A stretch of 44,884 bases of DNA from Desulfovibrionaceae bacterium. GTDB taxonomy: Bacteria > Desulfobacterota > Desulfovibrionia > Desulfovibrionales > Desulfovibrionaceae. This document shows positions 1,002-44,252 of this stretch, piece by piece. The notes below the pieces were generated by a model. The model saw only the letters and a list, made by a program, of their open reading frames with translations, was not told the DNA's origin and searched no databases. The stretch spans positions 1-44,884 of the forward strand of contig JAFTDR010000211.1 of NCBI GenBank assembly GCA_017454105.1. Reading direction: 5' to 3'. Both the position numbers and the translations under genes were made by a program. The first letter of the stretch is position 1, and each line of letters begins with the position of its first letter.

Positions 1002-3839
1002 GTGGCGATAGAAAAAAGAAATTGTGGCTTATCGGCTGAGGACCTGAGGGCTAGGACAATTCAAAAGGCAGCTTCTTTTGCCTCCTTTTGGGGCAAAAAA
1101 AAACACGGAGAGCGTCAGGAGGCAAGCCAGTTTGAGAAAGAATTTCTTGAGATTTTCAGCCTGAATTTTCGGGATGCGCGACTTGAACACAAAATTAAAG
1201 GATCTGACGGAAAAATACGCTACGTGGACTTGTTTTGGCCGGGGGAAATTCTGGTCGAGATGAAAAGCAGCGGCTCAGAAGAGTTTAAAGGCGATGAGGC
1301 GAACACGCAGGCCTTCGACTATGTTTCAGCGATTGAGCGTGCAGCCGATACACCCAAAGTAGTCATGGTCTCTGACTTCAATACCATTCGTCTTTTTGAT
1401 CTCAGAAACAGTATGGAGGATGGGCGATGGAACGGGGTTCGTCCAACGCCGCATGAATTTCCGCTCAGTGAGTTGTCCAAGGAAAAAAATTTCGCGCTGC
1501 TTCAGTTTCTCATAGGCAGAGAGGACCTCTTCTGCCATGGGCAGCTGGAAGTGAACCAGGAGGCCGCAGAGGAAATCGGCAAACTCTTTTCCCGTCTGAC
1601 CGAGAAAAAATACGCTGAGCATGATTGTACTGTCTTTCTGATGCGCGTTCTTTTTTGTCTGTTCGCCGAAGATACGCATATTTTCAGCGACAACGCTTTT
1701 GCTGAATTTATCCTGGAGTCCATTGATCACGGTCAAAGCATAGCGGGGAGACTCGGGCAACTCTTTGAAACTCTGGACACCAAAGTAGAGGACCGCGCGG
1801 ATTTGCCTTGCCCATGGGACAATTCGAAGCCTGACCCTGTTTTGTCTTTTCCGTATGTTGACGGGGGGCTCTTTCACGAAAAGATTAGGACACCGCCGAT
1901 TTCAGATGCAGAAGCTAAGGAGCTTATCGTTGAGAACTGCTCGACCATGGATTGGTCTAAGGTGTCTCCAGCTATCTTTGGCTCCCTTTTTCAGTCAATT
2001 CGCACGCGAGAGGAGCGTCGTCAGCTCGGCGAGCATTATACGTCAATAGAAAACATAGAAAAAGTGCTTAATCCGCTCTTTTTGGATGCGCTTAACGAAG
2101 AATACCAGTCAATTGTCAATTCTTTATCCGGCAAAAAGAAGAGCCAGCTTAAGGAATTTCAAGCGAAGCTCGGGAAGCTCCAACTTCTGGATCCGGCATG
2201 CGGTTGCGGCAATTTTTTAATTGTCGCCTATGAACGTCTGCGCAGTCTTGAGTATCGCGTCATCCGCGAGCTGTACACAAACAGTGATGGTGAAGTGCAG
2301 GTTGCGCTCGAAGCATCCCTTGTTCGCGCGGTACGACTCTCTCAGCTCCACGGCATCGAAATTGATCTCTTTCCGCAGATGATAGCCATGACTGCGGCCT
2401 GGCTCCAAGACCATCTTGCCAACGAACGCTTGTCGGCGCTTATCGGTAAACACGTTTCGACAATCCCTCTTTCCGATGCAGCGCACATCATTCACGGCAA
2501 TGCTCTGCAGCTTGATTGGGAGACTTGCTTCGAAGATATGGGGGAAAGGCATTTCGACTATATCTTTGGAAATCCACCGTTTGTAGGCGCAACGATGATG
2601 ACGGCGGAGCAAAAAAATGAAGCTGTTCAAATTTTTGGAAAAATAAAACTTTCCAACAGTATAGACTATGTAGGGGCATGGTTTTGCAAAGCTGCCAGCT
2701 ACATGGGGAGATATCAAACCACCCGCAGCGCATTTGTCGCGACAAACTCCATCACACAGGGAGAGCAACCTTCTGCCTTGTGGAAGCCTTTGTTTTCTCA
2801 ATACCCCGCTCTTCACTTTGATTTTGCCTGGAAAACTTTTAAATGGGATAATGAAGCCAAAGGCAAGGCTTCTGTCCACTGTATCATACTCGGCTTTAGT
2901 GTAGGCGAAAACATTAAAAAGCAAATATTTTCTCAGGATAACCAAGAATCTGTTGGAGAAATCAATGAGTATATAACGCCTCTCCCGATGGTTTTTATAG
3001 AGTCTCGGTCAAAGCCTATTTCAGGTGTTGAAAAAATTCGTCTTGGCAACAAGCCATCTGACGGTGGGCATTTGATTCTTACAGAAAAAGAAAAAAATGA
3101 AATCGAGTCCAATGAACCAAATATAAAGAAATATATAAAGAAATATATAGGCGCAGAAGAATTTATTAACAACACGACACGCTATTGTCTTTGGCTTCTT
3201 GATGTGAACCCCAATGACGTGAGAAAGAGTAAAGTGCTGCAGGAAAAATTAGAAAATGTAAGAAAGTTTCGCCTTAACAGCAGCGCAAAACCAACCAGGG
3301 AAAAAGCGCAAACCCCGCACCTTTTTTTCTATATATCCCAACCACAAACAGACTATCTGCTTATTCCCTCCACATCCTCAGAGCGTCGTGAGTATGTCCC
3401 AATCGGCTTCATTGATGGGAAGGAGATAATCGCCTCCAATGCAGCTGAAATCATTCCCAATGCAAACCTCTACCATTTTGCTATTCTCACGTCATCAATT
3501 CATATGACTTGGATGCGAACGGTCGCTGGACGACTTGAAATGCGCTATCGTTACTCAAACAACATTGTCTACAACAACTTTCCGTGGCCGGATAAACCAA
3601 AGGATACATCGAAGATAGAGACACTTGCGCAAGCCGTCCTGGATGCGCGCGCGGCACACCCAGGTTCCTGCCTTGCAGATCTGTACGATCCACTTGCCAT
3701 GCCTGACAATTTGCGCAGGGCACATAAAAACCTGGACAAGGCCATACTCAGACTCTATGGGCTTAAGTCTGGTGCGACGGACACAGAAATGCTTACTGTT
3801 TTGTTCGCAAAATATAAGGATTTGACCGCTGGGAAGTGA
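1002..3839 (+). CDS. MmeI-like (type IIL) restriction endonuclease-adenine methyltransferase
   Basis: This is a 945-residue single-chain restriction-modification enzyme. Near the N-terminus D76 is followed after nine residues by E86-M-K88, the D-X9-EXK nuclease pattern known from MmeI. A helical connector follows. Next comes an N6-adenine methyltransferase domain with the SAM-binding motif DPACGCGNF at 397-405 and catalytic NPPF at 524-527. The C-terminal third fits the target-recognition and C-terminal helical parts of this family. The length matches MmeI relatives (about 900-950 aa). Translation starts at GTG 1002, just after the strong AGGGGGGAG site at 991-999. In this family one strand is methylated and cleavage falls about 20 bases away; that is family knowledge, not visible here. 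No partner gene is needed and none is adjacent. Confidence 0.88.
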   Translation: MAIEKRNCGLSAEDLRARTIQKAASFASFWGKKKHGERQEASQFEKEFLEIFSLNFRDARLEHKIKGSDGKIRYVDLFWPGEILVEMKSSGSEEFKGDEANTQAFDYVSAIERAADTPKVVMVSDFNTIRLFDLRNSMEDGRWNGVRPTPHEFPLSELSKEKNFALLQFLIGREDLFCHGQLEVNQEAAEEIGKLFSRLTEKKYAEHDCTVFLMRVLFCLFAEDTHIFSDNAFAEFILESIDHGQSIAGRLGQLFETLDTKVEDRADLPCPWDNSKPDPVLSFPYVDGGLFHEKIRTPPISDAEAKELIVENCSTMDWSKVSPAIFGSLFQSIRTREERRQLGEHYTSIENIEKVLNPLFLDALNEEYQSIVNSLSGKKKSQLKEFQAKLGKLQLLDPACGCGNFLIVAYERLRSLEYRVIRELYTNSDGEVQVALEASLVRAVRLSQLHGIEIDLFPQMIAMTAAWLQDHLANERLSALIGKHVSTIPLSDAAHIIHGNALQLDWETCFEDMGERHFDYIFGNPPFVGATMMTAEQKNEAVQIFGKIKLSNSIDYVGAWFCKAASYMGRYQTTRSAFVATNSITQGEQPSALWKPLFSQYPALHFDFAWKTFKWDNEAKGKASVHCIILGFSVGENIKKQIFSQDNQESVGEINEYITPLPMVFIESRSKPISGVEKIRLGNKPSDGGHLILTEKEKNEIESNEPNIKKYIKKYIGAEEFINNTTRYCLWLLDVNPNDVRKSKVLQEKLENVRKFRLNSSAKPTREKAQTPHLFFYISQPQTDYLLIPSTSSERREYVPIGFIDGKEIIASNAAEIIPNANLYHFAILTSSIHMTWMRTVAGRLEMRYRYSNNIVYNNFPWPDKPKDTSKIETLAQAVLDARAAHPGSCLADLYDPLAMPDNLRRAHKNLDKAILRLYGLKSGATDTEMLTVLFAKYKDLTAGK

Positions 3840-31226: not shown

Positions 31227-34200
31227 TCAGAAGATTTGCTTTAAAGTTGTCAAAAGATTGTCAATATTTATGGGTTTTGCAATGTGGCCGTTCATGCCGG
31301 CGTCAAGGGCCGCCTTGCGATCCTCGTCAAAAGCATTTGCCGTCATGGCGACAATGGGTGTTTTGGCCTTGGCTGCGTCAGTAAGCGAGCGTATGGCCCG
31401 TGTCGCCGTATAGCCGTCCATGGTGGGCATCTGTATGTCCATAAGGACGACATCGTAGTAGCCGGGCTCAGCCTTCATGACCTTGTCAACAGCTTCTGTG
31501 CCGTCACCGGCCTCTTCAACCTGAAAACCGCTCATGGTGAGAATTTCAACGGCTATCTCGCGGTTCACCTCGATGTCATCGACGAGAAGTATGCGTTTGC
31601 CCTCAAAATTCCACTCAGCCTCGGCTTCTTCCTCAGTCTTTTGGGCGAAATCTTTGGAAAAAGCCTCCTCAAGGCATCTGTCAAGTTCCGAGGCGAAAAC
31701 AGGTTTATTGCAAAAGGCCTTGACACCGGCCTTCTCGGCATCTTCCTTGATGGAGAGCCAGTCGTAGGCGGTCACAAGAATAATGATCGGCTTTTCGCCC
31801 TTTGCCTCATCAGTTATCGCCTGAGCGAGCTGGATGCCGTTCATATCGGGCATCTTCCAGTCGATAATGCAAATTTGAAATGGATCGTTGCGCTTTGCCG
31901 CATCCGTGTAGCGGAGTTGCGAGTCTTTGCCGGACAGAGCCCAATCAACTCTGGCTCCAAGCTTACTGAGCATATTGCTTATGGCATCGCAGGAACTGTA
32001 GTCATCGTCCACAACAAGGATGTGCCGGTTTGCAAGATCGACTGCCTGGACTTGTTGTTTTGTCTTGGCGATTTTGAAGGTAAAGGTGAGGATAAATTCG
32101 GATCCCTCGCCTTTTTTGGTCTTAAGCTGAATGTCCCCCTTCATGAGATCCACAAGATGCTTGGTAATGGACATGCCAAGTCCAGTTCCCTGAATCTTGT
32201 TTACAGTCGAGGTTTTTTCGCGTTCAAAGGCTTCAAATATTTTCGCCGCGAATTCTGGGGACATGCCCATGCCATTGTCCTTGATCCGAAACTCAAAGGT
32301 GCCGTTCTCGCCATCCCGGGCAAGTTCGCGCACGCTCACCTCAATATGTCCGCCGGCCTGCGTGTATTTAATGGCATTGCTTAAAAGATTCAGAAGAATC
32401 TGATTTAAGCGAAGCTTATCGCAGACTATGGTCTCGTCGTCAATGGCAAAGGCATTGATATCAAAGGTCTGCTGCTTTTCCTCAATCTGTCCGATGATAA
32501 TGGTGTTTAGGTTGTGGAGGAGCTTAGGGATGCTGACTTCGGTGTTCTGCAGTTCTACCTTTCCGTTTTCAATGCGGCTCATTTCAAGGACATCATTGAT
32601 AAGAGAGAGGAGATGATTGCTCGAAAGCTGAATTTTATTGAGATAGTCGCGGATGACATCGGGATCTTTTTTGGTCAGCGCAAGGGTTGTGAAGCCGATG
32701 ATGGCGTTCATCGGGGTCCTGATGTCGTGGGACATATTGGAGAGGAAGGTGCTTTTCGATCGGCTGACCTCCTCGGCCTTCGCTTTCTCCATTTCAATTC
32801 TGCGCCGTCTGCTCTGCATAAGGGAGTAGACAATAAAGACAACGCCTATGCTCACAAGGATAATTAACATCTGCAGTGAGCTGTGTTTGACAAGCTGTCG
32901 GCCGAAGACCGTCATTTTATTTTCGAGAAATTTCTTTTCATCCTCGTCGGTCTGTATTTCATTTGCTGTGAAGGTTTTATAGTATACCGAGACATCCTTG
33001 ATCAGATCGTCGGTTGCGACCTGGACGTCCTGGCGCATCCACATAAGGGTTGAGGTGAATATGACAAAGAGCATGGAGAGCCAGACCATGGTGGATCGGC
33101 CAAAGCGCTCTGATTTGTCGTTTTTGAAGACCTTAAGGAAGTAGATGAAGCCGATCATGCCCCAGAGGGCGAAAATAAGATAGGACTCGGTCGCAAGGGA
33201 GCCGATTGACCAGAAGGAGGGGAGGAAGATAAACAGGCTGAGTGCCCCTGAAAGCACAATACCGAGAGCGCCGGTTATGAGATAGCGTGCGCGCTTCTTG
33301 CTTTTCGCTTTTTTGTAGGTGCAGATGGAAATATAGCCATAGGTCAATGTCGCGCCGATTGTCCCGATATCAATTATCCAGCCGATAGCCGTGCGTCCAA
33401 AGAAGGAGACAAAAATTGTTGATCCTATGACCAGGAAGATTGCGTTTTTGGGTATATTCCTATCGCTGCACCGAGTAAAAAAAGAAGGCAGAATCTTATC
33501 GTCCGCAACTGCATGCGTAAGCCTGCTTATGGCGATCGTAAGCCCCAGAATGCCGGTGGCCACTCCTGAGAGAATGGTAATGAAAAGAACAACAAGGCCA
33601 AATGTTCCGAGATATTCGCGTATAACATGAAAGACCGGCAAAGACAGAGAGGGCGCTCCTTCTATCTCCTGCGCGATACACTCTGCGTACTGCGTCCAAG
33701 TCAAGCCATCGCTGAACGGAAAGGAGGCAATGAGAGAAAAAAAGCAGTACATCAGGGTCGCTGCGACAACGCCGCCGAGCAAGGGGAAAAAGAGTGATTT
33801 TTTAGACGTGTTTATTTCTGTCTGCACATGTGAGACGGCTTCAAAGCCGCAAAAAGCCCAGGGAACAAGAGCGGCGACAGAGAAAATCTCGAAGGGTATG
33901 TCTTCATTCGGAAGAAAGGCCGGTGTTACATTGGCGAAGCCTCCGCCTTTGATCAGGACTCCCAAAAAGAGAGTGGTTCCGCCAAGAAAGAGCAGAACGG
34001 CAAAACAGGTGTTTAACCAAATGGCTATTCTGTTTTTGTAAATGCACAGAAGGCCGCCCAAGGTTATGCAAAGGGCTGTGCAGGCTACCTCTCCTCCGTA
34101 TACTTTGTATTCTGCGATACGGTAGTTAAAGCCGAATTTGAGGAAATTGTCCGTGAAATTATTGATGAGGAGAGGAAATGCGGTTGAGTTCGCCCAGATG

Positions 34201-34511
34201 ATCGCCGCATAGAGAAGCCAGAGAAACCAGCCGCAAAGGTAGGCGTGGTCCGCTCCAAGAATCGATTGGATATAGGTGTAGGCGCCGCCGGAACTCGGTT
34301 TTTCGGAAGACATGTAGTGATAGTTCGCTGCGATAATAATCATGGCGAGCGCGCCTAAGAGCATAGCTAGTGTCGAGCCTAAAGGGCCTGCCTTGGGGAG
34401 GAAAAGCGTGCCAGGCATAACAACAACCCCCCAGCCGACGCAGCAGCCGAGAGACATAGCTAAGACACGAAACGGTGTATAGCGCTTACGTGGAGAATGA
34501 TCTTGGGTCAT
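31227..34511 (-). CDS. APC permease-hybrid histidine kinase fusion with two receiver domains (copy 1)
   Basis: The 1094-residue protein joins a transporter-like sensor to a hybrid kinase. Residues about 10-470 form an amino-acid permease (APC)-type bundle of roughly 12 helices. The first carries [13 protein letters not shown] in the place of the GSG substrate loop, and [11 protein letters not shown] lies in the sixth-helix region. A further membrane pair flanks an extracytoplasmic segment of about 60 residues (near 490-555). Then follow a HisKA domain with phospho-acceptor H595 in SHDIRTPMN, an ATPase domain with [17 protein letters not shown] and [10 protein letters not shown], receiver 1 with D884 (IIDWKMPD), and receiver 2 with D1025 (LMDIQMP). 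No Hpt or DNA-binding output domain is present. The substrate may be an amino acid, by analogy. It sits nine bases upstream of nnr and is paralogous to 38912-42223. Confidence 0.9.
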
Positions 34512-34807: not shown

Positions 34808-35785
34808 GGGTTGCTGACAGAAGCCTGGATAGCGGATCGACAGTACGATGCAAAGCAAGACGGGGATGGTTTATTTCTGGTCGTGACAGAGAGCGGTGGC
34901 AAGTTTCAAGGCCAAGAGACTCGCCAGCCAATCTCAGCAAATGGCTAGGCAAAAGCTTGCGGAGATCACGGAGCGTGCGCAGGCTGAAGAGTGTGCGAAC
35001 AAAGATGTGGCGAAAAAAGTTTCATGGGATGAGGGAAACACTTTTGAGTCCGTGTTTAGCGCGTGGGGAGCTGCCATACAGGAGCTGACCCAGGCGGATT
35101 TGATTGATTTGTGTCTGTCGATACGAGACAGGTCGGTTGCGACTGCGCGGCAAGCGTTTTGCAGCATGTGTTCGGATACGCCGAGGACCAGGGCTTGATT
35201 TCAGCCTCACCCGCACACTCTCTTTCCTGGGCGCTCCCAAGGCGCGAGGGCGGGCATTATTCATCGGTCTCAGAGCTTAGGAAACTGTATGACTATGTGC
35301 AAAGCGGACGCAGCACCCTGCAAGTGAGGGTCGCCTTGGAACTCCTTCTTACGACCGATCTTTGCGCTGGGAGGACGTTGATTTGGATCGCGGCACTGTC
35401 TTAGTCCTGCCCAAAAGTGTACACAAAAGAGATGGTGGCATCCCTGTCTTTCTTGGGCCAAGGACGCTCGAAAGTTTGCGGCGCTACGCAAACGCCCGAG
35501 GTCTGTCGCGAATTTATGTTCCCGGCAGCCGTCAGAAAAAAAGGCCGAAGCCTGTCCGCGGATTCGCTGCGGCCATGCACGCGGCGGGTATTGGTGGTGA
35601 AATGACGCGTCAGGGCTTTTGGTCAATTATGAAGACCATCGCTTATGACAATGGCGCACCTTCTGAGAGTACGCAATGCGCCTTGGGACACAAGGGCACG
35701 GAGAATGCGATCACCCAGGATGTTTTTCAAGCAGCCTTACGCAAATTTGCCGCCTGGTACGAGGACTATTTGCTGGCCTTAGTGG
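34808..35785 (+). pseudogene. Broken P4-like tyrosine recombinase (phage/island integrase)
   Basis: Pieces in at least three frames line up with a P4-type integrase from N- to C-terminus. First comes the N-terminal LTEAWIADRQ, then DGDGLFLVVTESGGKF (about 34811-34910). Next is RQKLAEITERAQ with the core-binding part (to about 35150). Then ASVLQHVFGYAEDQGLI to LLLTTDLCAGR (to about 35370), and finally LRWEDVDLDRGTVLVLPKSV to AAWYEDYL. Catalytic positions are lost: the first arginine region reads LCAGR, HGFR reads QGFW, and the tyrosine region reads DVF. With frameshifts and lost catalytic residues this cannot be active. It marks a former integrated element; no tRNA or att site is visible nearby. 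Confidence 0.8.
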
Positions 35786-35821
35786 CAAAACAAGACGGAT
35801 GCGTAGCGTTTGGGGCAAGAA

Positions 35822-35848
35822 AAAAGCCCCAGAGACACTGGGGCTTTT
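35822..35848. terminator. Bidirectional terminator after the integrase relic
   Basis: AAAAGCCCCAG and CTGGGGCTTTT form a perfect 11-base-pair stem around AGACA, with T-rich ends on both strands. It serves the relic on the plus side and could stop the ychF-acpS-sel1 transcript, which ends at 35967 on the minus strand. Confidence 0.85.
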
Positions 35849-35966
35849 GTTCGTACAAGCTGTTTGCGAGCTGCGCACTTTGCGTTTTTCTGTGGCCCGT
35901 TTTCTTACGCTCGCCTACGGAAAAACCTAAAATGCTCAACCTGTCTGTCCAAAGGATCCGCGCTGG

Positions 35967-36770
35967 TTACAGACGTTTCATATGGTTTTTGACCGCCTTG
36001 ATTGCGGCTGGCGCGTCCTCGACACCGCAACGGTTCGCAAGCTCAAAATACTGCAAGGCTTTGCCGAAGTCTATCTCGCAGCCTTCTCCGTTGGCATACA
36101 TTGCCCCAAGTTCGTAGAAAGCCGAGGCATCGCCTAGCTTTGCCGCTTTTTCATAGTATTTCTTGGCAGTGGCGTAATCTTGTTTTGTCGCCTCTCCGTA
36201 GAAATACATTCGGCCAAGGTTAAATATAGAATTCGGATTGCCCAGCTCAGCGGCCTTTTCATACCACTGCATGGCTTTGAGCAGGTTTTTTGCGACACCG
36301 ACCCCATCGTAGTACATGCAGGCTAAATTGTGCAAGGCATCCCTGTCGTTTTCCTTGGCCGCCATCTCATAGAGTTCCCGGGCTTTTTTCAAGCTCTTTT
36401 TGACCCCGCAGCCAAGAAAATAGAGATTGCCAAGATCGGTCAGCGCTTCCACGCTGCCCATATCTATCGCTTTTTCATATAAGAGTTTGGCTCGGTCGTA
36501 TTCCTCGGTCTGAAAGCTCTTATGATAGATATTGGCAAGAAAGTAGGTCATATCCACATCCCCAGAGCGGGATCGTTTTTCAAGGTATTTTTTGAGTTCT
36601 TCTATGTCATTGAGTGATATCGCATTATTGGTGTACAGGTCATCGATGAAATGAATGAAAGCGTGTTTATCGTTTTTTATAGAATATTCTATGGCTCGTG
36701 CGAGAAGTTTATTGGAAAACACTTCGTTTTTCTCTGCTCGAGGTTTAAACTGGATAATTTTGCAGGCCAT
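35967..36770 (-). CDS. Sel1-like repeat (TPR) protein
   Basis: The 267-residue protein is built of about four to five Sel1-type repeats of 36 residues from about residue 85 onward. Examples are ALTDLGNLYFLGCGVKKSLK, ALHNLACMYYDGVGVAKNLL and SIFNLGRMYFYGEATKQDYA. Such helical solenoids bind other proteins. There is no signal peptide or membrane segment, so it should be cytosolic. The first 80 residues are charged and unassigned. AAGGA seven bases before ATG 36770 supports the start. It follows acpS by 42 bases and probably shares the ychF-acpS transcript. A specific partner is not evident. Confidence 0.85.
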   Translation of the reverse strand: MACKIIQFKPRAEKNEVFSNKLLARAIEYSIKNDKHAFIHFIDDLYTNNAISLNDIEELKKYLEKRSRSGDVDMTYFLANIYHKSFQTEEYDRAKLLYEKAIDMGSVEALTDLGNLYFLGCGVKKSLKKARELYEMAAKENDRDALHNLACMYYDGVGVAKNLLKAMQWYEKAAELGNPNSIFNLGRMYFYGEATKQDYATAKKYYEKAAKLGDASAFYELGAMYANGEGCEIDFGKALQYFELANRCGVEDAPAAIKAVKNHMKRL

Positions 36771-38911: not shown

Positions 38912-41900
38912 ATGCCTGAAATATACCAGACACAAAAAACGTTCACTCCCCTGGCCATTTGGGCGATGTCCTTCGGCTGCTGCGTCGGGTGGGGGGCCTT
39001 TGTCCTGCCAGGCTCGATCATGCTCCCGAGTGCCGGGCCACTCGGCGCTGCGCTCGCCCTTGTTCTGGGCGCTTTTGTCATGATCGTTATCGCCGCAAAC
39101 TATCATTTTCTTGCGCAGCGCTACCCTGGCCCAGGCGGGCCTTTTTTCTTTGTCCGCGCGGTGTTTGGCGCTGATCACGCCTTTCTCTGCGCCTGGTTTC
39201 TTTGGCTAGTGTACGCGGCGATCATCTGGGCAAATGCCTCGGCACTCACGATCATTTCCAGCCATTTTCTGGGGCCGGTTCTTAAGTTCGGCTTTCACTA
39301 CACACTTGCCGGTTCGGAAATCTATGCCGGAGAGATTCTTTGCACATCGCTTGTTCTCATCGCTTTCGGCCTGCTCTGTCTCTTCGCCAACCGTCTTGCG
39401 GTCATAGCCCAAATTGTCTTTGTTTTTTGTCTTCTTGCCGGCGCCCTTATCTGTTTTTTTGCTGTGTGTACCTCGCAAGGACAGAGTCTCCTCACCTCTC
39501 TTACTCCCCCCTTTATGCCCAATAATGAAAATCCGGCCCTCCAGGTCATTCGTATCCTTGCGCTTGCTCCGTGGGCCTATGTTGGCTTTGAGGCAGTTTC
39601 TCATCTAACCAAGGAAGTGCGCTTAAACAGAAAAAGGCTTTTTGGCATTATGACCTGCAGTTTGCTGACTGCGGCCTTGGTCTATGTTCTTTTTCTCATC
39701 CTCTCCGCCATGCCAATTCCTGATGCTGCGGACTGGCGCGCTTTTGCCTTGGGCAGGGCCGACAACGGTATAGTTTTTTTCCCGATGCTGCGCGTTGTCC
39801 GCAATGCGCTGGGCGAGGCAGGCGTTGTTGTCCTAGGCCTTGCTGTTTTGGGTGCGGTCGGATCCGGTTTGCTCGGTTTTTATATAGCATTGAGCCGGTT
39901 GACAGCGGCCATTGCTGCGGACGGCATTCTGCCCAAATGGTTTGCTGTCAAGTCAAAGCAGGGCATTCCCCGCAATGCCTTCCTTTTTATCATCGCAGTC
40001 TCGCTGATCATGCCCTTTGTCGGGCGGACGGCCATTATATGGATCGTGGATATCACAAGTATCTGCGCAACGATTGCCTACACCTATGTGTCCATCTGCG
40101 CTTTTCTTGAGGGCAAACGAAAAAACAGAAGAGTCTACACAGTCACTGGTGCCCTGGGCATCGCTTTCGGGATAGCGGTAGCGTTCTTCACCTTTATGCC
40201 GAGCCTCTGGTCTATCCCAATGCTTGCCTCGGAATCGTATTGCATTTTTTCGATCTGGGGGATTCTCGGTTTTGTTTTTTTCCTCTCCGTCTTTAGGCGC
40301 GATTCCTCTGAGCGCTACGGGCAGGCGACCTTTGTCTGGCTTGCCATGCTTTTTTTTATTTTTGTGTCTTCTCTTATGTGGATGCGCCAGGAGGCGCACA
40401 ATTCGGCTGAGACCATGCTCAACCGGGCAAGCGCGTACTACAATGCAAAAATAAGGGCGCTCGCTCATTCCCCTGATAGAGATGCTGACAGGGAGGCTCT
40501 ATCGAAAGAAGAGAAGGATGTTGTCGCAGGCTGCCTCAATGACTTCAATTCCCACCTCATTAAACACAGCCTCATTCAGATGCTGCTCATTTTTGTGAGC
40601 ATCGGCGTTGTGTTCAGTGCCTATTCCCTTATACATATGCGACGGCGCAAGGTGGAAATAGAAAAGTTAAAAGCCGAGGAGATAAACCGCTCGAAGTCCG
40701 CCTTTCTCTCAAGCATGTCCCACGACATACGCACGCCCATGAACGCGATCATAGGTTTCACCGATCTTGCGCTCACGCGCTATGATATCGAGACAGTGCA
40801 TGAGTATCTTGGAAAAATTAAGCTATCGTGCAATCATCTGCTCTCGCTCATTAATGACGTGCTTGAGATGAGCCGGATTGAAAGCGGCAAGGTGGAACTT
40901 CACCCGGCCCCGGTCAGTATCCCCGATGTTCTCCACGATTTAAACGCCATCATTATCGGACAGGTTGAATCAAAACAGCAGACACTTGATATCAATGCCT
41001 TAAATGTCCGAAACGAGAATATCCTCTGCGACAAGCTGAGGCTCAATCAGATTCTGCTCAATCTTTTAAGTAATGCCATTAAGTACACTCCTTCAGGCGG
41101 AAGGATTTCCGTTAATTTCAGCCAGTTTCCGGCCAAGGACGGCTTTGCCTGCTACGAGGTGCGCGTCAAAGACAATGGGCTTGGCATGTCCAAAGAATTT
41201 GCTGCCCGCATTTTTGAGTCCTTTACCCGCGAAAACACAAGCCATGCCCACACAATCCAGGGGACAGGTCTTGGCATGGCCATTACCAAAAATCTGGTCG
41301 ATCTGATGGGCGGCACAATAACTGTCGAGACCGAGAAGGGGAAAGGGTCAGAGTTTATTGTGACCTTCACTTTTCCCACCCTGCCAAGTGACACGCGGGC
41401 AATTATTCCGCAGGATCTTAAGGGCACGCACACTCTTGTGGTCGACGACGACTACAGCGCGTGCGATGGCATTATCGAGATGCTCACAGATTTTGGTGTC
41501 AGAGCGGAATGGTCTCTCTCGGGCAAGGAAGCGATACTGCGCTGTACAAGTGCCTTAAAGCGCGGCGATCCCTTCATGCTCTGCATTATAGACTGGAAAC
41601 TGCCGGATATCTCAGGAATCAGCGTTGTGCGGGAGATCATGGCGCTGCATGGAGAAAAAAAACCGAAGATTATCCTTGTCACAGCCTATGAGTGGCAAAA
41701 CATAAAGGATGAGGCGATTGCTGCCGGGGTGAATGTTTTCTGCAATAAACCGGTTTTTGCCTCAGAACTCAATGCGGCAGTACTCGCAGCCGTCGAATCC
41801 CATGACTACCAGGCAAAAAAGGAAAGAGAAGAGAAAGACGTCGCCTTTACCGGCCGGCGCATTCTTCTGGTGGAGGATGTCGAGGTCAATAGAGAGATTG

Positions 41901-42223
41901 CCGTGGCCATGCTGACCATGAACGGCATTGAGGTCGAGGAAGCCTGCAATGGACAGGAAGCCGTGCAAAAAGTTGGCGAGGCGGAGCCTGGGTACTATGA
42001 TCTTGTGCTTATGGACATACAGATGCCCGTTATGGATGGCTACGCGGCAACCCGAGCAATCCGCGCGCTCGATGGCGAGCAGGCCCATGTGCCGATCATA
42101 GCGATGACTGCGAACGCTTTTGACGAAGATAAAAAAGCAGCCCTGGCTTCTGGCATGAACGGCCATCTGACGAAGCCCATAACTATTGAAAAGCTTCTGG
42201 AAACAGTCCAGGAGGTCTTCTAA
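38912..42223 (+). CDS. APC permease-hybrid histidine kinase fusion with two receiver domains (copy 2)
   Basis: This 1103-residue paralog of the protein at 31227-34511 has the same order. An APC permease-like bundle (about 10-470) has GCCVGWGAFVLPG in the first helix and WAYVGFEAVSH in the sixth-helix region. A membrane pair and extracytoplasmic segment follow. The HisKA domain carries H604 (SHDIRTPMN), and the ATPase domain carries [10 protein letters not shown] and DNGLGMS. Receiver 1 has D894 (IIDWKLPD) and receiver 2 has D1035 (LMDIQMP). I chose ATG 38912, which has GAGG nearby and aligns residue for residue with the start of copy 1. The open frame extends to a TTG at 38828. All phosphotransfer residues are intact. 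It converges on the FIST-HD-GYP gene. Ligand and output are unknown. Confidence 0.9.
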   Translation: MPEIYQTQKTFTPLAIWAMSFGCCVGWGAFVLPGSIMLPSAGPLGAALALVLGAFVMIVIAANYHFLAQRYPGPGGPFFFVRAVFGADHAFLCAWFLWLVYAAIIWANASALTIISSHFLGPVLKFGFHYTLAGSEIYAGEILCTSLVLIAFGLLCLFANRLAVIAQIVFVFCLLAGALICFFAVCTSQGQSLLTSLTPPFMPNNENPALQVIRILALAPWAYVGFEAVSHLTKEVRLNRKRLFGIMTCSLLTAALVYVLFLILSAMPIPDAADWRAFALGRADNGIVFFPMLRVVRNALGEAGVVVLGLAVLGAVGSGLLGFYIALSRLTAAIAADGILPKWFAVKSKQGIPRNAFLFIIAVSLIMPFVGRTAIIWIVDITSICATIAYTYVSICAFLEGKRKNRRVYTVTGALGIAFGIAVAFFTFMPSLWSIPMLASESYCIFSIWGILGFVFFLSVFRRDSSERYGQATFVWLAMLFFIFVSSLMWMRQEAHNSAETMLNRASAYYNAKIRALAHSPDRDADREALSKEEKDVVAGCLNDFNSHLIKHSLIQMLLIFVSIGVVFSAYSLIHMRRRKVEIEKLKAEEINRSKSAFLSSMSHDIRTPMNAIIGFTDLALTRYDIETVHEYLGKIKLSCNHLLSLINDVLEMSRIESGKVELHPAPVSIPDVLHDLNAIIIGQVESKQQTLDINALNVRNENILCDKLRLNQILLNLLSNAIKYTPSGGRISVNFSQFPAKDGFACYEVRVKDNGLGMSKEFAARIFESFTRENTSHAHTIQGTGLGMAITKNLVDLMGGTITVETEKGKGSEFIVTFTFPTLPSDTRAIIPQDLKGTHTLVVDDDYSACDGIIEMLTDFGVRAEWSLSGKEAILRCTSALKRGDPFMLCIIDWKLPDISGISVVREIMALHGEKKPKIILVTAYEWQNIKDEAIAAGVNVFCNKPVFASELNAAVLAAVESHDYQAKKEREEKDVAFTGRRILLVEDVEVNREIAVAMLTMNGIEVEEACNGQEAVQKVGEAEPGYYDLVLMDIQMPVMDGYAATRAIRALDGEQAHVPIIAMTANAFDEDKKAALASGMNGHLTKPITIEKLLETVQEVF

Positions 42224-42329: not shown

Positions 42330-44252
42330 CTAGCAAACGCAATACATTTCCCGCATCCTGTACGTTTTGTCAGAATCGATCATTTTGAGCATGATGTCGG
42401 CAAAGACGGGATCGAATTGTCTGTCTTTTCCTTTTTTTATTTCCTGCCGGACAATATCCTGAGGAAGGATATTGCGGTAGCTTCTGTTGCTCGTCATTGC
42501 GTCGTAGGCGTCGGCTACAGCAATAATTCGGGCTATTTCAGGAATCTCATCGCCTTTTAGCCCGTCAGGGTAGCCTAGGCCATCGTAGCGTTCGTGATGC
42601 CAGCGCGCGCCAATCGCCAGGTTGGGCATCTCCTTGATGGTGTTTAAGATATTCGCACCGATAATCGTATGCTCCCGGATCACGGCGTACTCATCGTCGC
42701 TTAATTTGGTCTTTTTGTTGATAACATAGTCGGGCACACCTATCTTTCCCACATCGTGCAGAAGGGCAACCATGTAAATTTCGTCTAACTTTTTTTTCGA
42801 ATACCCATACACCCTGGCTATATCCTTTGAATACTGCGCAACTCTGCTTGAATGACCTTTTGTATAGGTGTCCTTGGCATCAATGGTACTTGCCAGAGTT
42901 TCAACAATATGCAAAGATAAACTTTCATTTTTCTTCGATATTCTCTCAACTTCAGACTTCAAGTTGTTCTGATAGTTGAGCAGATCATGCGTCATCTGGT
43001 CGAAGAAATGCGAGACGATAAAGGACAGGGGAATGTTTGTGTTCTTGAATTTTTTAACTTTAGGAATTGAATAATTGAACGGCGCATCGCTTTGTTTTTG
43101 CTTTGTGTCTTCGCGTAAGGCCACAGAAACCAAGGCGCTGTTGAGCGTTCCACCAGTCCTGTTGTTGCAGGCAATTTCACCGTAGGCATGGCAGTAGGTG
43201 AAGTCCGACACGCAGTTGCTGTAGTATTCCAGTTCAGAAACCTCTTCATCGCGCATAAAAGCATTTCTGTTGGCGCATATAATCAACATCAAGGCTTCAG
43301 GAGACATTGACAGTATTCTCTGACAGTTGTCAAATGAGGCTTCAAGTATCTCCTCACGCGTGCAGTACGCGAACTGGACTTGGTCGTTGGGATTAATCTT
43401 CCCTCCATAGTAGATTGTGCCCTCATGGCAGCCTATGGGGGTATAGCAGATATTGATGCCGTTTTTGTTGACGATGAGCGGAAAGTACCAGGCATTTAAG
43501 AGAAAGTTGTCATCCCAGGGCACGCCAAGATATTTGAGAAAAACTTCAAGAGCGTTGACGCCATCAATCTGGTAGAGGCCGGTTGCGCCAAGAATAGGTT
43601 TTTTTTCGAGGCAAACGCACATCTCCCGGCCGATCGGCCGCCAGCTCTGCACATAATTAACAGATATCTTTAAGTTTTCCCCTGTATACACAATAATTGA
43701 GTAGCCGCTGTCCTCTATGTTCTCTCCTATTGCAAAGGAGTCTTCAAGTTTTACTAAGGTACTCCCTTCAAAGCGTGCTGGCTTGGACAATGATCCGAAA
43801 ATTGAAATATCCCCGTATTCTTCAGATAAGGCTTCAATAAATTCAGACGTGTCCGTTAACTGGTTCGCAGAGCAGATTTCAAAGGCTTTAATGTTCTTTA
43901 GTGAGGATACCTTGTCGATAAAATTTTTGGCGGCTATCCGCTCTGTTCCGCGTGTGCATGGAATATAATATGAGTAAAAAAACGAGGTATCCGCTATAAT
44001 GAGGTTCAACTTGATCCTATGTCTGTCCGTTTTTGGCTGCGACGGAAACTCTGAAATTCCGATGCGCGGAATATCAGGAAGGACGCCAGAGATATCTTGA
44101 AGGAGCCTTTTCGCAAGGTTTTTTGACATGCCTGAGACATAGATGTGCATGAGAACCTTGGAGGGCGGTACGTCTTTCAGCATTTCTCTGATTGGAATAA
44201 GGGCGTCTACCGCACTCGATAGGTTATTGAATACATAGTTTTTTTGTCTCAT
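42330..44252 (-). CDS. FIST-sensor HD-GYP cyclic-di-GMP phosphodiesterase
   Basis: The 640-residue protein has a FIST_N-like region (about 30-200) and a FIST_C-like region (about 220-380) with the signature CHAYGEIACNNRTGGTLNSA around G358-E359. A helical linker (about 410-450) leads to an HD-GYP domain. There H499-D500 lie in LLHDVGKIG, HHERYDGLGYP includes G560-Y561-P562, and ADAYDAMTS follows. FIST domains are predicted to bind small ligands such as amino acids; HD-GYP domains hydrolyse cyclic-di-GMP. No signal peptide or membrane helix is seen, so it should sense a cytosolic ligand. The start ATG 44252 has AAGGG upstream. It converges on the permease-kinase gene. Confidence 0.88.
   Translation of the reverse strand: MRQKNYVFNNLSSAVDALIPIREMLKDVPPSKVLMHIYVSGMSKNLAKRLLQDISGVLPDIPRIGISEFPSQPKTDRHRIKLNLIIADTSFFYSYYIPCTRGTERIAAKNFIDKVSSLKNIKAFEICSANQLTDTSEFIEALSEEYGDISIFGSLSKPARFEGSTLVKLEDSFAIGENIEDSGYSIIVYTGENLKISVNYVQSWRPIGREMCVCLEKKPILGATGLYQIDGVNALEVFLKYLGVPWDDNFLLNAWYFPLIVNKNGINICYTPIGCHEGTIYYGGKINPNDQVQFAYCTREEILEASFDNCQRILSMSPEALMLIICANRNAFMRDEEVSELEYYSNCVSDFTYCHAYGEIACNNRTGGTLNSALVSVALREDTKQKQSDAPFNYSIPKVKKFKNTNIPLSFIVSHFFDQMTHDLLNYQNNLKSEVERISKKNESLSLHIVETLASTIDAKDTYTKGHSSRVAQYSKDIARVYGYSKKKLDEIYMVALLHDVGKIGVPDYVINKKTKLSDDEYAVIREHTIIGANILNTIKEMPNLAIGARWHHERYDGLGYPDGLKGDEIPEIARIIAVADAYDAMTSNRSYRNILPQDIVRQEIKKGKDRQFDPVFADIMLKMIDSDKTYRMREMYCVC

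Follow-up and report, generated by a model that had tools for sequence, protein, structure and literature searches.

To our knowledge, covalent fusions of a transporter to a histidine kinase are rare and few of them have been characterised. In Escherichia coli the APC-family permease LysP serves as amino-acid co-sensor for the membrane regulator CadC. In CbrA and CrbS, an SLC5 transporter is joined via a STAC domain to a kinase (PMC7096432, PMC13022988), and CbrA transports histidine, although signalling does not require its transporter domain and its kinase activities are unchanged by histidine (PMC7096432). In Ks-Amt5 from Candidatus Kuenenia, the domain joined to a kinase is an Amt domain, which binds ammonium but no longer transports it (PMC5764959). 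A literature search, covering few subscription journals and hence weak evidence, found no description of APC or amino acid permeases fused to kinases or GGDEF domains, in line with the initial annotation of the locus described here, which knew of no characterised APC-type example.

The gene is located at 31227..34511 on the minus strand of the window, by which we mean the whole analysed stretch of 44,884 nucleotides from a Desulfovibrionaceae bacterium, and encodes a protein of 1094 residues (P0001) with the order APC permease, TM13/hairpin/TM14, HisKA, HATPase_c, REC1 and REC2. Its frame begins with ATG and runs through 1094 codons with no internal stop. All Pfam domains scored far over their cut-offs: AA_permease_2 at residues 13-431 (2.6e-32; 112.7 bits, cut-off 27, with positions 3-407 of the 427 of the profile covered), HisKA at 585-650 (1.3e-19; 32562..32759, minus strand), HATPase_c at 698-812 (4.6e-27; 32076..32420, minus strand) and Response_reg twice, with the best match at 974-1090 (6.5e-45; REC2, 31242..31592, minus strand). 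REC1 spans residues ~830-950 (31662..32024, minus strand) and was assigned from Pfam, conservation and the full-length model. The histidine of HisKA, the N and G boxes of the HATPase and the acceptor aspartate of the receivers, which define a hybrid kinase, are present; the SSS family is not among the Pfam matches, and the permease matches are AA_permease_2 and AA_permease. P0001 belongs both to the APC fold family and to the hybrid kinases, and it falls outside the SLC5 family of CbrA.

A second gene of the same architecture is encoded 4.4 kb away on the opposite strand (38912..42223, plus strand; ATG start preceded by GAGG), and the two proteins are 52% identical over their full length. Its APC permease domain (38948..40201), HisKA (40694..40888), HATPase_c (41030..41374) and receiver 2 (41861..42208, all plus strand) were located by Pfam. 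The TTG start listed for this copy is probably not used, because the GAGG-preceded ATG 28 codons further on aligns with the start of P0001. A third, broken permease relative is found on another contig of the genome (C57, L035:6951-8692), where it is divided into two frames with a break near the middle and follows a dCache-GGDEF gene; its intact counterparts in L070 and L071 have the same neighbour. An assembly or frameshift fusion of two adjacent genes, which would have undone the initial annotation, finds nothing in its favour beyond the 341 contigs of the genome, and is opposed by the two divergent copies in the window, by a shared architecture in ten or more further assemblies from two phyla, and by the NAD(P)HX epimerase/dehydratase-like neighbour gene kept in both L149, the closest relative of P0001, and L078. 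We consider its probability negligible, and an assembly artefact was rejected on the recurrence of the architecture across assemblies.

Other features of the window are frames resembling a broken tyrosine recombinase between the paralogues (~34900-35800, plus strand; no Pfam match at 1e-5 for 35362-36117), an MmeI-type restriction-modification protein at 1002-3839 (plus strand), and a FIST sensory domain joined to HD_5 at 42330-44252 (minus strand), in a gene that converges on the second fusion gene. In L126, too, a FIST hybrid kinase lies near an APC fusion.

The permease domain (residues 13-464, 33120..34475, minus strand) has twelve membrane helices and was delimited from Pfam, hydropathy, modelling, PDB matches and conservation. 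An AlphaFold2 model of residues 1-585, with homologues of the fusion as the only alignment input, reached a pLDDT of 81 and a pTM of 0.82. Residues 7-474 of this model superpose on AdiC (VIA Z 37, 421 residues, rmsd 3.0) and ApcT (Z 35), with y+LAT1, CAT4 and BasC as further fold matches in Foldseek and VIA-align. Pfam and, for the permease, the model bear out what was initially annotated from the sequence, an APC-type permease joined to a hybrid kinase that has two receivers. The nearest solved proteins by sequence are CAT1, CAT4 and GkApcT, and a LysP is present among both the sequence and the fold matches in the PDB.

In AdiC and GkApcT, TM1 and TM6 bind the backbone of the amino acid and contain the gating tryptophan. 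The corresponding motifs of P0001 are GWG in TM1 (residues 26-28) and PW..GFE in TM6 (217-224), with W218 and E224 equivalent, by motif, to W202 and E208 of AdiC. Among 56 fused domains, G26 and G28 of TM1, N108 of TM3, and P217, W218 and G222 of TM6 are near-invariant. GWG is found in nearly all of the 56 fused permeases and likewise in 35 of 38 free-standing relatives; it is a trait of the subfamily, and the earlier suggestion that a VGWG loop marks binding without transport lapses. Where GkApcT has its TM5 lysine, the fused proteins mostly align with Leu or Phe and the free relatives with Leu. Four positions separate the two groups: W106 in TM3 (53/56 fused) and D88 (56/56) are each absent from the 37 free-standing residues listed, E224 (54/56) is replaced by Asp in 37/38 free-standing proteins, and H228 (43/56) by Gln in 38/38. 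Judged from the alignments, these are the best candidates for a change from transporter to receptor. The amino-acid-recognition core is conserved and may also transport.

The fusion by itself is no proof of sensing, because the transporter domain of CbrA is dispensable for signalling and histidine has no effect on its kinase activities. By this precedent (PMC7096432), permease and kinase of P0001 could be fused and yet mostly independent, the APC part importing an amino acid and the kinase answering an intracellular or other signal, and the TM1/TM6 recognition residues are indeed retained as in free-standing relatives. However, the PAS domain of CbrA could receive the signal, whereas P0001 carries no sensory domain on the cytoplasmic side from TM14 to HisKA, and the permease domain remains attached when the output changes (see below). 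Independence of the two parts is therefore considered unlikely.

Hydropathy averaged over 13 homologues gave 14 membrane helices, namely the 12 of the permease followed by TM13 (474-492) and TM14 (544-562), with ~50 residues between them. The transporter bundle proposed earlier as the membrane part is a true APC bundle, but it is extended by an additional TM13-hairpin-TM14 module. This linker (residues 474-570, 32802..33092, minus strand, from hydropathy and the model) would, from the parity of the twelve APC helices, place the segment between TM13 and TM14 outside and the kinase inside. No Pfam match was obtained for residues 465-584 with a profile set that may lack a STAC model; TM13, hairpin and TM14 are predicted there. 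In the 1-585 model, helices 474-516 and 522-584 form a long hairpin, which falls outside the PDB matches of Foldseek and VIA-align. The model of the full-length protein extends the TM14 helix to residue 592 as an unbroken helix 522-592 with confidence below 50 from residue 577, and confidence is low along the helix 577-654. The spacing between Q547 in TM14 and H595 is exactly 48 residues in 10/10 full-length homologues, with hairpin lengths between 50 and 60; this fixed spacing, together with the unbroken helix, fits the expectation of helical transmission.

As TM13, hairpin and TM14 are laid out like an ordinary two-TM sensor and the unit is present in the kinase and GGDEF fusions examined, the extracytoplasmic hairpin might itself read the signal, with the permease bundle as a relic that serves only as anchor or dimeriser. 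The hairpin is, however, short, length-variable and poorly conserved compared with the near-invariant substrate-site positions of the permease, whose loss one would expect in a relic. We regard sensing by the hairpin as somewhat less likely still than independence of permease and kinase.

Ten full-length homologues all retain H595 of HisKA, the N box, DxGxG and GTGLGM, together with D1025 of REC2 and its Thr and Lys partners. The initial annotation had called H595, D884 and D1025 intact, which is correct for P0001, but D884 of REC1 is Gly in two of the ten homologues (L041 and L048). The acidic pair and the Lys of REC1 are lost in L039, two further members of the genus (L068 and L076) have Glu at the D884 position, and REC1 is the least conserved stretch of the catalytic half. 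Because REC1 is weaker in the homologues and members from the Negativicutes mostly have one receiver, REC2 is the likely exit for the phosphate, with REC1 as an accessory domain.

Among the flanking genes read, which are a part of the window genes, neither an Hpt nor a DNA-binding regulator was present, as had been noted before. The output was accordingly called open; this holds for the neighbourhood, but less so for the genome as a whole, in which three Hpt matches exceeded the cut-off. Two of these are located within one frame of 1029 residues that is CheA-like by size, and the only free Hpt found is a 148-residue protein beside a REC-GGDEF-EAL gene, which makes a phosphorelay from P0001 to c-di-GMP plausible; the assignment follows from a single free Hpt found by a search that weak Hpt domains can escape. 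Sister proteins of P0001 bear GGDEF directly. A PAS-HisKA-HATPase-REC gene with a similar PAS adjoins the fusion in further Desulfovibrio and in Negativicutes (L146, L148, L150, L151, L126, L127 and L152), and two homologues of this gene are present on other contigs of the window genome.

A survey of the architecture, as suggested with the initial annotation, showed its occurrence in more than one phylum and with several outputs. A scan of genome contigs led to 13 loci, 12 of them in Desulfovibrio or Desulfovibrionaceae MAGs and one in a Selenomonadaceae MAG, and several of the records with fusion loci name rumen samples. Counted from the search output, fusions are present in 13/79 genomes of the genus of the window and in 17/250 genomes of the class of the Selenomonadaceae genome, which is Negativicutes in the NCBI taxonomy. 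One further fusion genome (G708) was detected in a sample of 398 Bacillota, and none beyond the window's own genome in a sample of 198 genomes of its phylum. This range is a lower bound, with Actinomycetota, Bacteroidota and Pseudomonadota lying outside the survey. Free-standing relatives, mostly 27-33% identical, are commoner in the family of the window and are also present in Bacillota and in other parts of the phylum. None of the matches in a plasmid search spanned 80% of the query, and the annotated ones were plain permeases.

Following the permease and linker, the output is HisKA-HATPase-REC-REC in proteins of the P0001 type, HisKA-HATPase-REC in L064, L067, L069 and L145, GGDEF in L044, L064, L075, L133 and others, and GGDEF-REC-EAL in L144; a form of ~1280 residues in L065 and L074 has a receiver and, read by eye, an Hpt-like tail. 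L137-L143 contain tandem pairs of APC fusions with kinase-like domains without receiver, most of them without a recognisable G2 box, and with a CheB-like gene in most loci and MCP genes in several. In L070, L071, L077 and the broken third copy of the window genome the permease stops after TM13 and a dCache-GGDEF gene adjoins, which may be a split version of the fusion. The loci read gave no hint at the ligand from metabolic neighbours; recurrent neighbours were further signalling genes (PAS-HK-REC, CheB-like, MCP and dCache-GGDEF) and, in a few loci, C39-type ABC pairs. ABC transporter gene pairs, one with a C39 peptidase domain, occur near an APC hybrid kinase in L127 and L145, from different Bacillota genomes.

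In a maximum-likelihood tree of 73 permease domains, calculated by a quick search with SH-aLRT support only, 24 free-standing domains were separated from 49 fused or split ones with an SH-aLRT of 99 for each group. The fused permease domains all fall into a single clade, distinct from the free-standing permeases, which were chosen by similarity to the fused protein, so that deeper free branches could fall between. Within the fused side, hybrid kinase, GGDEF and receiver-less outputs occur in several blocks and the host phylum switches at least five times, a pattern suggestive of transfer between Desulfovibrio and Bacillota. The fusions are apparently a larger, undescribed family, in which one transporter-derived sensor is combined with several signalling outputs, and the same input on kinase and GGDEF outputs fits a sensor rather than a passenger.

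Therefore, of the explanations considered, we favour as rather probable that P0001 is a transceptor, in which an APC permease core was recruited as the input of a hybrid histidine kinase and signals via the TM13-TM14 hairpin. The core would bind an outside amino acid or a related amine, and its movement would pass by the TM13-hairpin-TM14 unit and the continuous helix into the HisKA dimer. Phosphate would then be transferred from H595 to D1025 of REC2, with REC1 as accessory. From REC2, a free Hpt whose gene lies elsewhere in the genome would relay it to a response regulator on another protein, for which the REC-GGDEF-EAL protein encoded next to this Hpt is a plausible candidate. With similar, moderate confidence we propose an undescribed family of bacterial APC-type transceptors, consisting of a permease-derived amino-acid-sensing module that has its own TM13-hairpin-TM14 transducer, has passed between Desulfovibrio and Negativicutes living in animal guts and is mounted on kinases, diguanylate cyclases and c-di-GMP phosphodiesterases. 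Such a family would reveal an amino-acid signal acting on sulfate reducers of rumen and gut and on selenomonads, and sensor swaps would be feasible with an input that serves both kinase and GGDEF outputs. As fused and free-standing permeases belong to one subfamily and differ at few sites, the change from transporter to receptor is directly testable.

The free-standing APC permeases of Desulfovibrionaceae and Bacillota share the subfamily and the GWG and P(W/F) motifs with P0001, but form a separate clade with Asp for E224 and without W106, D88, TM13-TM14 and an output domain. LysP is a separate protein that contacts the one-component regulator CadC, whereas P0001 is covalently fused to its kinase. 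CbrA and CrbS of Pseudomonas and Vibrio, like P0001, combine a LeuT-fold transporter and a sensor kinase in one chain; their transporter is of the SSS/SLC5 type with 13 TM instead of an APC domain with 12, their linker is STAC (plus PAS in CbrA) instead of a predicted TM13-hairpin-TM14, and CbrA has the dedicated regulator CbrB, where none was found near P0001. Ks-Amt5 differs in its trimeric Amt fold, followed directly by DHp and CA and without receivers, but likewise joins a transporter-derived membrane domain to a histidine kinase, as proposed for P0001, and its kinase is regulated by conformational change (PMC5764959). By analogy, either behaviour, that of CbrA or that of Ks-Amt5, is possible for P0001.
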